Assembly (NCBI RefSeq): GCF_900105165.1
Contig: NZ_LT629740.1
Location: 868,001 to 932,000, forward strand
Origin: Mucilaginibacter mallensis
Lineage (GTDB): Bacteria; Bacteroidota; Bacteroidia; Sphingobacteriales; Sphingobacteriaceae
DNA length: 64,000 nt
Direction of reading: 5' to 3'
The translations under genes were made by a program, and so were the position numbers. Every line of letters starts with the position of its first letter. The stretch's first letter is position 1. Under the pieces are notes generated by a model. That model made no database searches and was not told the DNA's origin. It saw only the letters and a program-made list of their open reading frames with translations. Positions 57,738 through 61,765 of this stretch are shown here, in pieces.

Positions 57738-58685
57738 TTACGATACAGCCACCAACGCTGGCTTACTTTCATTAACCTTCACATTATTTTGCTCGTCAGT
57801 TTCTTTATCAATATCAATACGAACCATCGGTCCCGCAGCAGCCAGCTCACTGCCTTCAACCTTTGATTTAAATATCGGCCATAATAACTGTGCATACCAT
57901 TGGTCGCCTGCATAATGCGATATGCCGTAGGCTTTTGGGTACTGGCGTGTTATAAGCGCGGTGCCAAAAATGATATCCCACAGGAAAAACATATTGCCAA
58001 AGTTGCCTTTGTAATAACCTATACCATCATCAGTACTGGCGGCATGGTGGGCGTGGTGTGTAGCCGGGGTTGATATGGTGCGCTCCAACACCCAGGCAAT
58101 AGGGTGCAATATTTTGTATTTGTATAATGGCTTATCCCAGGGAATGCTGGAGTGCGCCAAAGTAGTAATAGTTCCTTTGATTATGCCTACAATTATAGCA
58201 GGTATACCCAGACCCAGATAAACAAGGGCCGTGGTTAAATAAACCTGCGAAAAGAAAATGGTATAAATAAGATTTTGCCTGTTAGCCATAGCCATACCCA
58301 TGTACGATGCTGAATGGTGTGTACGGTGAAACCTCCATAACCATGGAATCTGGTGATGCAAGCGGTGGTACCAGTATTGGGTAAGGTCATCAGCAACGGC
58401 TATAATGGCAACGCCCCAGAATAGGGGTACCCAGCTGAATATATTTTTATAGGCAGGTAGTAGTGCCGGTAACACTTTTAAGCCAAATAAACCAAATGCA
58501 GGCCTGATTACAAGGGGCACTACAATAAAGCAGGCGATATCAACCCAGCGCTCGTTTTTTGGCCATTTACCTTTGTACAGGCCGAATGAAAATTCAAGCA
58601 CGCCAATAAAGACTAATAAAACCGGAAAACCGTAACCGTTAAGATTTTCTATTATTTTTTTGATGAATTCAATCGTTGCTTCCAT
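57738..58685 (-). CDS. Sterol desaturase/fatty acid hydroxylase family protein
   Basis: A 315-residue integral membrane di-iron oxygenase. Histidine clusters: HRLHHQIPWLWRFHRTHH (about 118-135) and THHAHHA (about 210), plus later His residues. Several membrane helices lie between about 15 and 200. Members hydroxylate or desaturate lipids. Its start overlaps the 66-residue membrane-protein gene by 17 bases, so translation is coupled. Upstream of this operon lies the leader peptide ending CYCCC, which suggests cysteine-dependent expression. Confidence 0.9.
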   Translation of the reverse strand: MEATIEFIKKIIENLNGYGFPVLLVFIGVLEFSFGLYKGKWPKNERWVDIACFIVVPLVIRPAFGLFGLKVLPALLPAYKNIFSWVPLFWGVAIIAVADDLTQYWYHRLHHQIPWLWRFHRTHHSASYMGMAMANRQNLIYTIFFSQVYLTTALVYLGLGIPAIIVGIIKGTITTLAHSSIPWDKPLYKYKILHPIAWVLERTISTPATHHAHHAASTDDGIGYYKGNFGNMFFLWDIIFGTALITRQYPKAYGISHYAGDQWYAQLLWPIFKSKVEGSELAAAGPMVRIDIDKETDEQNNVKVNESKPALVAVS

Positions 58686-58869
58686 TGGTAAAATTGCTTT
58701 TGTTGGTTATTGATTTTATGTTTTCTTTTTTAGCTGCTTTCTTTTCCCACGGCCTCTGCCCGGTTATGGTAAATGTGAGGAACATGAGCGCAATTGGCAG
58801 CACGTAAATAAACAGGCTCAGGATCAGGTTCCTGGTTATCTGTTTTTTTGTGGTTGTATCTATTTTCAT
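58669..58869 (-). CDS. Small single-pass membrane protein (66 aa)
   Basis: A basic N-terminus (TTTKKQITRN), one hydrophobic helix (about 15-37, LILSLFIYVLPIALMFLTF) and a Lys/Asn-rich tail. Its ATG overlaps the stop of the preceding 57-residue gene as ATGA, and its end overlaps the hydroxylase start by 17 bases. It may be a subunit or partner of the hydroxylase. No family recognised. Confidence 0.65.
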   Translation of the reverse strand: MKIDTTTKKQITRNLILSLFIYVLPIALMFLTFTITGQRPWEKKAAKKENIKSITNKSNFTNGSND

Positions 58870-59039
58870 GATTTGTTAGTTTTAATTTGTTTAACAGCGG
58901 GCTGTGGCTGACTGCTGTTGCCCTGTAATAATTTTTGCGTAAGGAAAAGCCCTCCTACGATAATGATAAAAGGTACCAGGGTGATGATAATACCAACCAG
59001 GATCTTTTTACCGATAAGGGATACATCTGATAATGTCAT
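58866..59039 (-). CDS. Small single-pass membrane protein (57 aa)
   Basis: A 57-residue ORF starting MTLSDVSLIGKK with one hydrophobic helix (about 13-33, ILVGIIITLVPFIIIVGG) and a short polar tail ending KTNKS. It overlaps the next gene as ATGA, the usual sign of translational coupling. First structural gene of the three-gene operon behind the CYCCC leader. Function unknown. Confidence 0.6.
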   Translation of the reverse strand: MTLSDVSLIGKKILVGIIITLVPFIIIVGGLFLTQKLLQGNSSQPQPAVKQIKTNKS

Positions 59040-59199
59040 AGTTATTTTAGATTTATTGATTTATGATTTGATTAAATATTGGGCTGAATTACCAGTCTAA
59101 ATGTTCTAAGAAGCGGTGAACAAGTCATAACATATCCTATCCGCTATGCGCGACCTATTTTCTTGAACCGGTAAAAGGATTAATGGAAATTACGCAGGA

Positions 59200-59289
59200 T
59201 CAACAACAACAATAACAGCGTTCCGGCTGTAAGGTAATCACGCCCATGTGGGCTGGTATGTGTTTACTGATATGTAAAAATGCTTTCAT
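59200..59289 (-). CDS. Cysteine-rich leader peptide (29 aa, ends CYCCC)
   Basis: A 29-codon ORF beginning MKAFLHISK, passing HMGV, and ending Glu-Arg-Cys-Tyr-Cys-Cys-Cys then TGA. Four of the last five residues are Cys, a placement that would stall ribosomes when Cys-tRNA is scarce. It lies 19 bases past a TAnnTTTG box and 160 bases upstream of the 57-residue gene. A second peptide with the same plan is at 61685. Coding status is inferred from the paired occurrence and the shared promoter. Confidence 0.7.
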   Translation of the reverse strand: MKAFLHISKHIPAHMGVITLQPERCYCCC

Positions 59290-59307: not shown

Positions 59308-59359
59308 CAAATATAAAAATATTTATTAAATACTAGTAAATATATAGATTTTATAGAAT
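59308..59359 (-). promoter_or_regulatory. Promoter and shared upstream box of the CYCCC leader
   Basis: On the minus strand TATATTTG (59308-59315) followed by CATTGTAAAACAA is the -7 region; the 16-base box at 59344-59359 (plus-strand ATAGATTTTATAGAAT) lies upstream. Both recur at the same spacing before the second leader. The box also lies just upstream of the opposite promoter of the SAM riboswitch, so one regulator could act on both. Confidence 0.7.
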
Positions 59360-59373: not shown

Positions 59374-59393
59374 CATCATAATTGTTCTTTAAT

Positions 59394-59511
59394 ACTTATC
59401 CAGAAAGACAGAGGGAAAGGCCCTATGACGTCTTAGCAACCTGTACCGGCTACAAAATAGTTGGGTAAAAGGTGCTAACTCCTGCTCCATTTAAAATGGG
59501 GAAAGATAAGA
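59394..59511 (+). ncRNA. SAM-I (S-box) riboswitch
   Basis: P1 pairs CTTATC (59395-59400) with GATAAG (59505-59510). Conserved core: AGAGGGAAAGGCCCTATGACG, then TTAGCAACC and AAGGTGCTAACTCCTGC. This class binds S-adenosylmethionine and lowers downstream expression when SAM is plentiful. The next gene is a cysteine desulfurase starting about 100 bases later. A weak hairpin (CCTCTCAGCGGGATTTTCT, near 59533) may be the terminator platform. Confidence 0.93.
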
Positions 59512-59612
59512 TGACAACAGAATTTAATATCCTCTCAGCGGGATTTTCTATTGCTTCTCTGCGATAAGTATTTACGAAACAGGTAAAAACACATTATTAA
59601 AGAAAAGCAAAA

Positions 59613-60743
59613 ATGAAAATCTATCTCGACAACGCCGCCACTACCCAACTTGATACCGCAGTATTTAAAGCCATGACCCCATATTTGCTGGAGCATTATG
59701 GCAACCCATCATCGCACCATGCGCATGGGCGTGAGGCTAAACTGGCTATTGAAAATGCAAGGGCGACAATAGCCAGGCTTATCAATGCATCGCCCGAGGA
59801 AATTATTTTTACCAGCGGTGGTACTGAGGCTGATAATACGGCTATATTATCCACCATTCGCGTACAGCAAATAAAAAATGTGATCACTACGCCGTTGGAA
59901 CATCATGCTGTGTTGCACCTGCTGGAGAATTTGGAAAAGCAGGGCGAGATCAAACTCAATTATCTAACCATAAATAAACAAGGCGAAATCGATCTGGCTG
60001 AGCTGGAGCAATTGCTAAAAAACAACGGGCGCTCATTGGTATCTGTTATGCATGCCAATAACGAGATCGGCAATTTGAATGATATTGATGCGATAGGCGA
60101 GCTCTGCGAGCGCTACGATGCCGTTTTTCATACCGACACGGTGCAAACCATTGGCCATTACCGTCATGATCTGCAAAAATTAAAGGCGCATTTTATAGCT
60201 TCATCGGCACATAAGTTTCATGGGCCAAAGGGAGTGGGATTTTTGTATTGTCGTAAAGGCACCGGCTTAACCAAACTATTGCATGGCGGTTCGCAGGAAA
60301 GGCAGCTGCGTGCAGGCACAGAAAATATTCACGGCATCATTGGCCTGGCTACAGCGCTTGAAATTGCTTACCAGGATATTGATGCACATCAAACCTATAT
60401 ACAAAACTTAAAGAACAGGCTCATCGCCAAACTAACAGAACAAATTCCGGGTGTTTCATTCAACGGAAATTCTGCTATCGCGGATAAGAGCCTTTACACC
60501 GTATTAAGCGTAAACCTGCCATTTACTGATGTTAACCTGCTGTCATACCTTGATCAGCAGGGCGTATCTGTTTCGGGCGGAAGCGCTTGTTCAACTGGTT
60601 CCGCATCGCATGTATTAAAAGCATTAAATAACGGGGCATCTGGCTATACCATCCGGTTTTCATTCAGTAAATTTAATACTGCCCAGGAAATTGATTTTAC
60701 TGTTGCTGCGCTTGCCGCAGTTTACCGGTCGGTTGCCGCTTAA
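59613..60743 (+). CDS. Cysteine desulfurase (NifS/IscS-like)
   Basis: A 376-residue PLP enzyme that takes sulfur from L-cysteine as a persulfide and leaves alanine. It starts MKIYLDNAATTQLD, has HHAVLHLLE and HANNEIGN, the PLP Lys in SSAHKFHGPKG (about 203) and the persulfide Cys in SGGSACSTGS (about 326). It lies behind a SAM-I riboswitch, unusual for iron-sulfur supply and suggestive of sulfur routing toward methionine or thiolation. A tRNA-Cys gene on the other strand ends two bases after its stop. Confidence 0.93.
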   Translation: MKIYLDNAATTQLDTAVFKAMTPYLLEHYGNPSSHHAHGREAKLAIENARATIARLINASPEEIIFTSGGTEADNTAILSTIRVQQIKNVITTPLEHHAVLHLLENLEKQGEIKLNYLTINKQGEIDLAELEQLLKNNGRSLVSVMHANNEIGNLNDIDAIGELCERYDAVFHTDTVQTIGHYRHDLQKLKAHFIASSAHKFHGPKGVGFLYCRKGTGLTKLLHGGSQERQLRAGTENIHGIIGLATALEIAYQDIDAHQTYIQNLKNRLIAKLTEQIPGVSFNGNSAIADKSLYTVLSVNLPFTDVNLLSYLDQQGVSVSGGSACSTGSASHVLKALNNGASGYTIRFSFSKFNTAQEIDFTVAALAAVYRSVAA

Positions 60744-60745
60744 AG

Positions 60746-60817
60746 AGGCGTGAGAGCGGGTTCGAACCGCTGTAAAGAGTTTTGCAGACTCCCGCCTAAC
60801 CACTCGGCCACTCCGCC
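60746..60817 (-). tRNA. tRNA-Cys (GCA), with extra base in acceptor stem
   Basis: Anticodon loop CTGCAAA (anticodon GCA), D-arm GCCGAGTGGTTAGGC and T-arm AGCGG-TTCGAAC-CCGCT are normal. The 5' acceptor strand GGCGGAG pairs with CTC-A-CGCC only if one A is bulged out, making it one base longer than its neighbour. It may be less active or a decaying copy. Second of two tandem tRNA-Cys genes. Confidence 0.85.
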
Positions 60818-60905
60818 GTAAAATACTTATCTGAAAGTCAGCGACACTACCCGCTGACTTTTCAAATAAGCGAAAACTAAACTAAAAAAAAACTAAATCA
60901 AAAGG

Positions 60906-60976
60906 AGGTCAGAAGCGGATTTGAACCGCTGTTGCAGGTTTTGCAGACCTGTGCCTAACCGCTCGGCCACCTGACC
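60906..60976 (-). tRNA. tRNA-Cys (GCA)
   Basis: A complete cloverleaf: acceptor GGTCAGG / TCTGACC with U73, D-arm GCCGAGCGGTTAGGC, anticodon arm CAGGT-CTGCAAA-ACCTG, T-arm AGCGG-TTCAAAT-CCGCT. CCA is not encoded. It starts 10 bases after the carbonic anhydrase stop on the same strand, so it is probably processed from that transcript. Confidence 0.95.
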
Positions 60977-61684: not shown

Positions 61685-61765
61685 TCAACAACAACAATAC
61701 ACGCCCATATCGCGAAGCGTGAGATGGAAATTTGTGCTTTTGGGGAGATGTGAAATCGTGTTCAT
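61685..61765 (-). CDS. Cysteine-rich leader peptide (26 aa, ends CCC)
   Basis: A 26-codon ORF beginning MNTISHLPK and ending Asp-Met-Gly-Val-Tyr-Cys-Cys-Cys then TGA. It matches the second leader at 59200 in promoter, length class, internal MGV and terminal Cys run, although most codons between differ. It lies 18 bases past its TAnnTTTG box and 128 bases upstream of the carbonic anhydrase/tRNA-Cys operon. A ribosome-stalling sensor for low Cys-tRNA is the simplest reading. Confidence 0.72.
   Translation of the reverse strand: MNTISHLPKSTNFHLTLRDMGVYCCC

Follow-up and report, generated by a model that had tools for sequence, protein, structure and literature searches.

The operon considered here raises the question of why a membrane hydroxylase of the lipid-modifying type should be placed under the control of cysteine. 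It lies in a window of 64,000 nucleotides from Mucilaginibacter mallensis, the whole stretch of DNA that was analysed, where a short upstream open reading frame (uORF) ending in CYCCC precedes genes for two tiny membrane proteins and for the hydroxylase. An earlier note had described this arrangement, including the ATGA overlap of the two small genes, and every one of these features is present as described, on the minus strand:

59308..59315, minus strand: TATATTTG box upstream of the leader
59289..59200, minus strand: leader uORF MKAFLHISKHIPAHMGVITLQPERCYCCC, 29 codons, with CYCCC right before the stop codon TGA
58866..59039, minus strand: 57-aa single-pass membrane protein with the conserved core KKI.VG....P
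58669..58869, minus strand: 66-aa single-pass membrane protein, its gene overlapping the 57-aa gene as ATGA
57738..58685, minus strand: FA_hydroxylase-superfamily membrane enzyme (PF04116), 315 aa, its gene overlapping the 66-aa gene by 17 nt

The best explanation, to which a probability of roughly two in three is given as a whole, is that this is a cysteine-starvation (sulfur-limitation) operon for an organosulfur-scavenging membrane hydroxylase complex.

The leader can be judged by its position and by its recurrence. The -7 element of Bacteroidota promoters has the consensus TAnnTTTG, which the TATATTTG box presumably represents, and the box is kept as TAT(A/C)TTTG in two relatives. Since it ends 18 nt ahead of the leader ATG, a short 5'UTR is likelier than a leaderless start. 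The leader of the hydroxylase operon is itself kept in the relatives L034 and L035, and, more widely, orthologous operons from Mucilaginibacter, Pedobacter, Dyadobacter, Desertivirga and others are preceded by uORFs with unrelated N-termini and a shared poly-Cys end (...HSCCCC, ...GYCCCC, ...RYCCCC, ...NQYCCC, ...NFYCCC and ...LFPEPCCCC). By a fixed rule, requiring an ATG start and at least three Cys among the last five residues, such a uORF occurs on the coding strand in 19 of the 36 upstream regions that could be tested, against none of the 36 on the reverse strand and a mean of 0.065 (maximum 2) in dinucleotide shuffles of these regions. Twenty orthologue loci were also followed to 12 kb upstream, and 15 of these extended loci have a Cys-tail leader, located 120-322 nt upstream of the first gene of the operon, which is usually SusC. 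The rule recognises no leader in the remaining loci (17 of the 36 testable and 5 of the 20 extended). Used as a protein query against family genomes, the leader peptide gave weak matches only outside its own genome, because its N-terminus is not conserved. Two other matches of the CYCCC DNA pattern in the M. mallensis genome were judged not to be leaders.

It could still be argued, from the loci in which no leader is recognisable, that the CYCCC uORF arose by chance and that cysteine has no bearing on the operon. This is very improbable given the excess over shuffled and reverse-strand sequences, the persistence of the poly-Cys end even though the N-termini differ, and the consistent sulfur regulon of the same genome, described below. 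The comparison thus supports what the earlier note had suggested, namely that CYCCC marks a putative cysteine-codon leader, beyond what chance would produce.

Such a leader would act through its own translation. The run of Cys codons right before the stop would stall ribosomes when Cys-tRNA is scarce, and stalling would allow the genes behind the leader to be transcribed or translated. It is very likely that the leader of this operon works by cysteine attenuation, a response to cysteine that we infer from its codons. RNA folding of the leader region in the window was not better than that of shuffled sequences (z -0.47). No terminator/antiterminator pair was found in the window between the leader and the 57-aa gene, and this stretch is poorly conserved, so the output step may be Rho, translation coupling or another process.

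A conserved, structured RNA does occur in Sphingobacteriaceae between Cys leaders and SusC/TonB genes. It is laid out as a hairpin CCGGCAAGG-AAG-CCTTGCCGG, a second hairpin with GTAACGCCAATCAC or TGACTGCGAATCAC, and then TTTACTAAC; compensatory changes affect 4 of its 15 pairs among 11 sequences, with a net covariation term of about zero. Three loci were searched against Rfam without a match, and a covariance model of the RNA found 15 copies in 151 family genomes, 11 of them behind a Cys-tail leader (10 of 11 among the copies with E < 1e-9). Copies lie at L139:1735-1850 (G000:C1:4964507-4964626 in the M. mallensis genome), at L212:1490-1615 (G000:C1:117752-117870) and in L191-L198. The RNA is absent from the window and is therefore not needed for the hydroxylase operon there.

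Attenuators of a related kind, polycysteine leaderless sORFs, have been reported in mycobacteria (Canestrari et al. 2020, doi 10.1111/mmi.14498, cited in PMC9031893). As far as they are outlined in PMC9031893, they share with the present leader a run of adjacent Cys codons in a short ORF that precedes an operon, and expression of the downstream genes is likewise proposed to be set by the supply of cysteine. Unlike the mycobacterial sORFs as outlined there, the leaders discussed here belong to Bacteroidota, carry the poly-Cys run as their last codons ahead of the stop, have a predicted short 5'UTR instead of a leaderless start, and precede a regulon of SusCD, sulfatases, the hydroxylase and a carbonic anhydrase.

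The extent of this regulon was surveyed by scanning the M. mallensis genome for runs of Cys codons that end at a stop (pattern TGYTGYTGYTRR) and by using the leader peptide as a query. The pattern occurs at 116 places; among the 100 listed, with a few near 5.17-5.18 Mb (a repeat-like cluster) left out, at least five are credible intergenic, ATG-started Cys-tail leaders. All five stand before sulfur-related or transport genes, whose names, where there was no Pfam call, were assigned by reading the sequences. The second of them lies in the window itself, 2.4 kb away from the first, and precedes a carbonic anhydrase gene:

61685..61765, minus strand: second Cys-tail leader uORF MNTISHLPKSTNFHLTLRDMGVYCCC, kept in L034 and L035
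60987..61556, minus strand: beta-type carbonic anhydrase (Pro_CA), behind the leader MNTISHLPKSTNFHLTLRDMGVYCCC
60747-60818 and 60904-60976, minus strand: two tandem tRNA-Cys(gca) genes, between the desulfurase-like gene and the carbonic anhydrase gene
59613..60743, plus strand: class-V aminotransferase, closest to the cysteine desulfurase NifS, behind a SAM riboswitch
59393..59512, plus strand: SAM riboswitch (RF00162; 84.9 bits, gathering score 44.4), upstream of the divergent gene

The class-V aminotransferase scores 396 bits against the NifS model, below the equivalog cut-off of 531. Elsewhere in the genome, the leader MKAFLHSGSTFYAITGVSSLQLNCCMCCC precedes an operon of the order SusC-SusD-DUF1254-sulfatase-sulfatase-TonB receptor (L143), and the leader MNQNSKINTANSMRMPFPQIGLCCCCC stands directly before a PhyH-type dioxygenase gene (L144:1677-2537), which is followed by genes for an antiporter, a tRNA-Cys, a second cysteine desulfurase-like protein, a MetNIQ/methionine-type ABC importer, cysteine synthase and serine acetyltransferase. 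The fifth leader precedes genes for a TonB receptor and a symporter. With sulfur-related or transport genes behind the other Cys leaders, cysteine control of the hydroxylase fits a sulfur regulon.

Several further observations concern these loci. Within a sulfur regulon, the product of the carbonic anhydrase-family gene might conceivably hydrolyse carbonyl sulfide or CS2 instead of acting as a carbonic anhydrase, and the PhyH-type dioxygenase of L144 is a possible organosulfur (taurine-type) oxygenase. DUF1254/DUF1214 proteins recur in Cys-leader sulfatase operons (L143:8792-10291 and L206), which suggests a sulfur-related role for them. Three tRNA-Cys genes, the two in the window and one at L144:4028-4099, adjoin desulfurase-like class-V aminotransferase genes and Cys-leader operons. 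The tRNA-Cys gene at 60747 carries one additional A, which is expected to form a bulge in the acceptor stem and is found unchanged in L034 and L035.

The hydroxylase matches PF04116 with 85.3 bits (gathering cut-off 31) and has the His boxes HRLHH, HRTHH, H178 and HHAHH (H107/110/111, H120/123/124, H178 and H210/213/214), all ten histidines being invariant across 57 orthologues. The orthologues of the enzyme form a tight group at 58-94% identity and more than 420 bits, whereas other FA_hydroxylases reach at most 41% identity over short matches and less than 63 bits. Among curated families, OlsE (ornithine lipid hydroxylase, NCBIfam NF052566) comes closest, but at 50.4 bits against an equivalog cut-off of 475 the enzyme could not be assigned to it. 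Both are membrane enzymes of the PF04116 superfamily with His boxes; unlike OlsE, the present hydroxylase has an extra, split N-terminal helix, a 57-aa partner, an uptake and sulfatase operon in relatives, and a Cys leader. An AlphaFold2 model of a fused orthologue shows a core of helices predicted with fair confidence (pLDDT 78.8), and a PDB fold search with this model gave no match at E <= 0.001.

The fused orthologues also clarify the two tiny proteins. In 33 of 80 orthologue loci, the 66-aa protein is joined to the N-terminus of the hydroxylase (for example in L071, where the enzyme begins MNLDKSLAQKITRDGLISVVLYLAPIVLMF...), and it is a separate gene in nearly all others; judged from these fusions, it is the split-off N-terminal membrane segment of the enzyme. 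The 57-aa family, often just 36-40 aa long, was found by profile search beside the hydroxylase in 78 of the 80 loci. A second copy in the M. mallensis genome was sought with no convincing result, its two other profile matches being weak. The natural reading, drawn from gene order and fusion, is that the 57-aa and 66-aa proteins are subunits of one membrane complex with the hydroxylase and would be in contact with it; the idea of the earlier note that the tiny proteins serve as subunits has gained accordingly from the fusions and from the near-obligate presence of the 57-aa neighbour.

The role of this complex is indicated by its neighbourhood in relatives. When neighbours were counted within 5 kb flanks of the 80 orthologue loci, with Pfam confirmation on representatives, the most frequent were SusC (58 loci), SusD (54), sulfatase (41 loci, 59 genes) and the sulfatase-maturing enzyme FGE (17), followed by rhodanese-thioredoxin (11), DUF1254/1214-type proteins (6) and a Cons_hypoth698 (YeiH-like) transporter (5). 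Around the four other FA_hydroxylases of the M. mallensis genome, the roughly 1.5 kb covered on each side contain nothing that matches SusC, SusD, sulfatase or FGE. A minimal operon of the order SusC-SusD-57aa-66aa-hydroxylase, mostly with a leader, occurs in L191, L194-L196 and L200. In L068, the SusC and SusD genes are gone, and a leader followed by a remnant of the start of SusC stands directly before the hydroxylase; this links the two forms of the operon and hints at a loss of SusCD as the origin of the stand-alone form seen in the window. The window has no SusCD or sulfatase gene beside its hydroxylase, whose link to them rests on the relatives. With Bacteroidota SusCD-sulfatase loci, the operons of relatives share SusC, SusD, sulfatase and FGE in one operon; they differ from them in that a Cys leader and a membrane hydroxylase are tied in, and the copy in the window differs further in standing alone, without SusCD. 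The literature searched contained no account of a sterol desaturase with sulfatase and SusC, of a fatty acid hydroxylase with sulfatase in Bacteroidota, of Cys-rich uORFs in Bacteroidetes or of sulfonate in Sphingobacteriaceae, nor of a sulfur regulon marked by Cys-codon leaders in Bacteroidota. Two transcriptome studies of Bacteroidota speak of leader peptides in general terms, with no cysteine leader among them.

In the proposed mechanism, a di-iron enzyme of the fatty acid hydroxylase superfamily, its split-off N-terminal helix of 66 aa and a 57-aa partner helix would form a complex serving an organosulfur-scavenging pathway, encoded in relatives by one operon together with SusC and SusD for uptake, sulfatases and the enzyme that matures them. 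SusCD would import a hydrophobic sulfate ester or sulfonate, and the complex would oxygenate the imported compound at the carbon that adjoins either the sulfur or the sulfate oxygen. The oxygenated product would then fall apart, freeing sulfite or sulfate. A sulfur-scavenging role of the hydroxylase complex is probable, and if the enzyme is part of organosulfur scavenging in relatives, the cysteine control of its operon is explained. Oxygenation of an imported organosulfur compound is the most likely chemistry because several relatives have just SusC, SusD, the two small proteins and the hydroxylase. That the hydroxylase itself releases the sulfur is possible and is put forward tentatively, its substrate and reaction being conjectural.

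A comparison with known enzymes makes this proposal more specific. SsuD, TauD and AtsK are soluble flavin or 2-oxoglutarate enzymes, and their products fall apart to sulfite or sulfate. As with these enzymes, the proposed oxygenation would free sulfite or sulfate under sulfur limitation; unlike them, the hydroxylase would be an integral-membrane di-iron enzyme, with the activity remaining putative. A slightly more doubtful suggestion is accordingly that the hydroxylase and its 57-aa and 66-aa helices are an integral-membrane di-iron organosulfur oxygenase, acting on hydrophobic sulfonates or sulfate esters (possibly including sulfonolipids), and that this would be a Bacteroidota counterpart of SsuD, TauD and AtsK switched on by a poly-Cys leader.

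Other roles for the enzyme have to be set against this one, and several of them turn on membrane lipids. The earlier note had proposed that the hydroxylase modifies sulfonolipids, which is one form of a broader possibility, that it remodels a membrane lipid (sulfonolipid, ornithine or glycine lipid, or sphingolipid) under sulfur shortage, thereby lowering the sulfur demand of the membrane or keeping it stable. The M. mallensis genome encodes a cysteate acyltransferase homologue (L232; G000:C1:586581-587708) with 569 bits to PDB 28eh and 540 bits to SulA (7u7h), against only 217 bits to serine palmitoyltransferase; a separate serine palmitoyltransferase is also encoded, so both sulfonolipids and sphingolipids may be produced by the organism. 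PMC9304779 describes SulA and the structure 7U7H. The co-occurrence with cysteate acyltransferase genes that the earlier note had proposed to examine is complete: among 395 Bacteroidota genomes, 137 have the acyltransferase and 14 the hydroxylase, all 14 within the 137, and the acyltransferase is present in 30 of 30 further hydroxylase genomes. It nevertheless carries no information, since the gene is present anyway in 91 of the 98 genomes sampled at class level or closer, most of them without the hydroxylase, and an overlap of 14 in 14 would be expected by chance about one time in three by estimate. The note had also held that finding the operon in species without sulfonolipids would speak against the link; as every hydroxylase genome tested has the acyltransferase, the point counts neither way. 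The neighbourhood gives the sulfonolipid link no support: the conserved clusters around the 80 orthologues comprise SusC, SusD, sulfatase, FGE and rhodanese, with no lipid-synthesis gene recognised among them. Lipid remodelling can thus point to OlsE as the nearest curated family and to the constant presence of the acyltransferase, but the OlsE cut-off is far from reached, the neighbours are uptake and sulfatase genes, and just 14 of the 137 genomes with the acyltransferase carry the hydroxylase. This reading is considered unlikely.

Two further alternatives keep the enzyme closer to sulfur. The hydroxylase might oxidise a hydrophobic alcohol or sterol left behind by a sulfatase, for disposal or as a carbon source, without releasing sulfur itself. 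The sulfatase and FGE genes near many of the orthologues would suit such a step, but the minimal operons combine SusCD and hydroxylase without a sulfatase, the unit in the window likewise has none, and it would be odd for a step of carbon use to be under Cys control; the idea appears a little less likely still than lipid remodelling. A sulfonolipid is, finally, a possible substrate for breakdown: the organism's own or its neighbours' sulfonolipid would be attacked, with the hydroxylase cleaving the C-S bond and the sulfur being recovered as sulfite, a reading that combines the idea of the earlier note with scavenging. The membrane location of the enzyme, the Cys leader and the acyltransferase in all hydroxylase genomes tested are compatible with this, but no direct link connects the two, and the presence of SusCD and sulfatase genes also speaks for sulfate esters from outside the cell; that sulfonolipid is the actual substrate is considered improbable. 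Scavenging of organosulfur compounds under cysteine starvation remains the preferred explanation of the operon.

If this explanation holds, the regulatory logic of the operon would be new as a phylum-level variant of known leader control, and the hydroxylase complex would be an uncharacterised component of organosulfur scavenging. A membrane hydroxylase family that has so far been uncharacterised would thereby gain a concrete and testable role in sulfur scavenging, together with two tiny putative subunits that are named here and are usually missed by annotation. Cysteine-codon leaders would mark a sulfur regulon across several Bacteroidota families, and they may be used to find more sulfur-acquisition genes in soil Bacteroidota.
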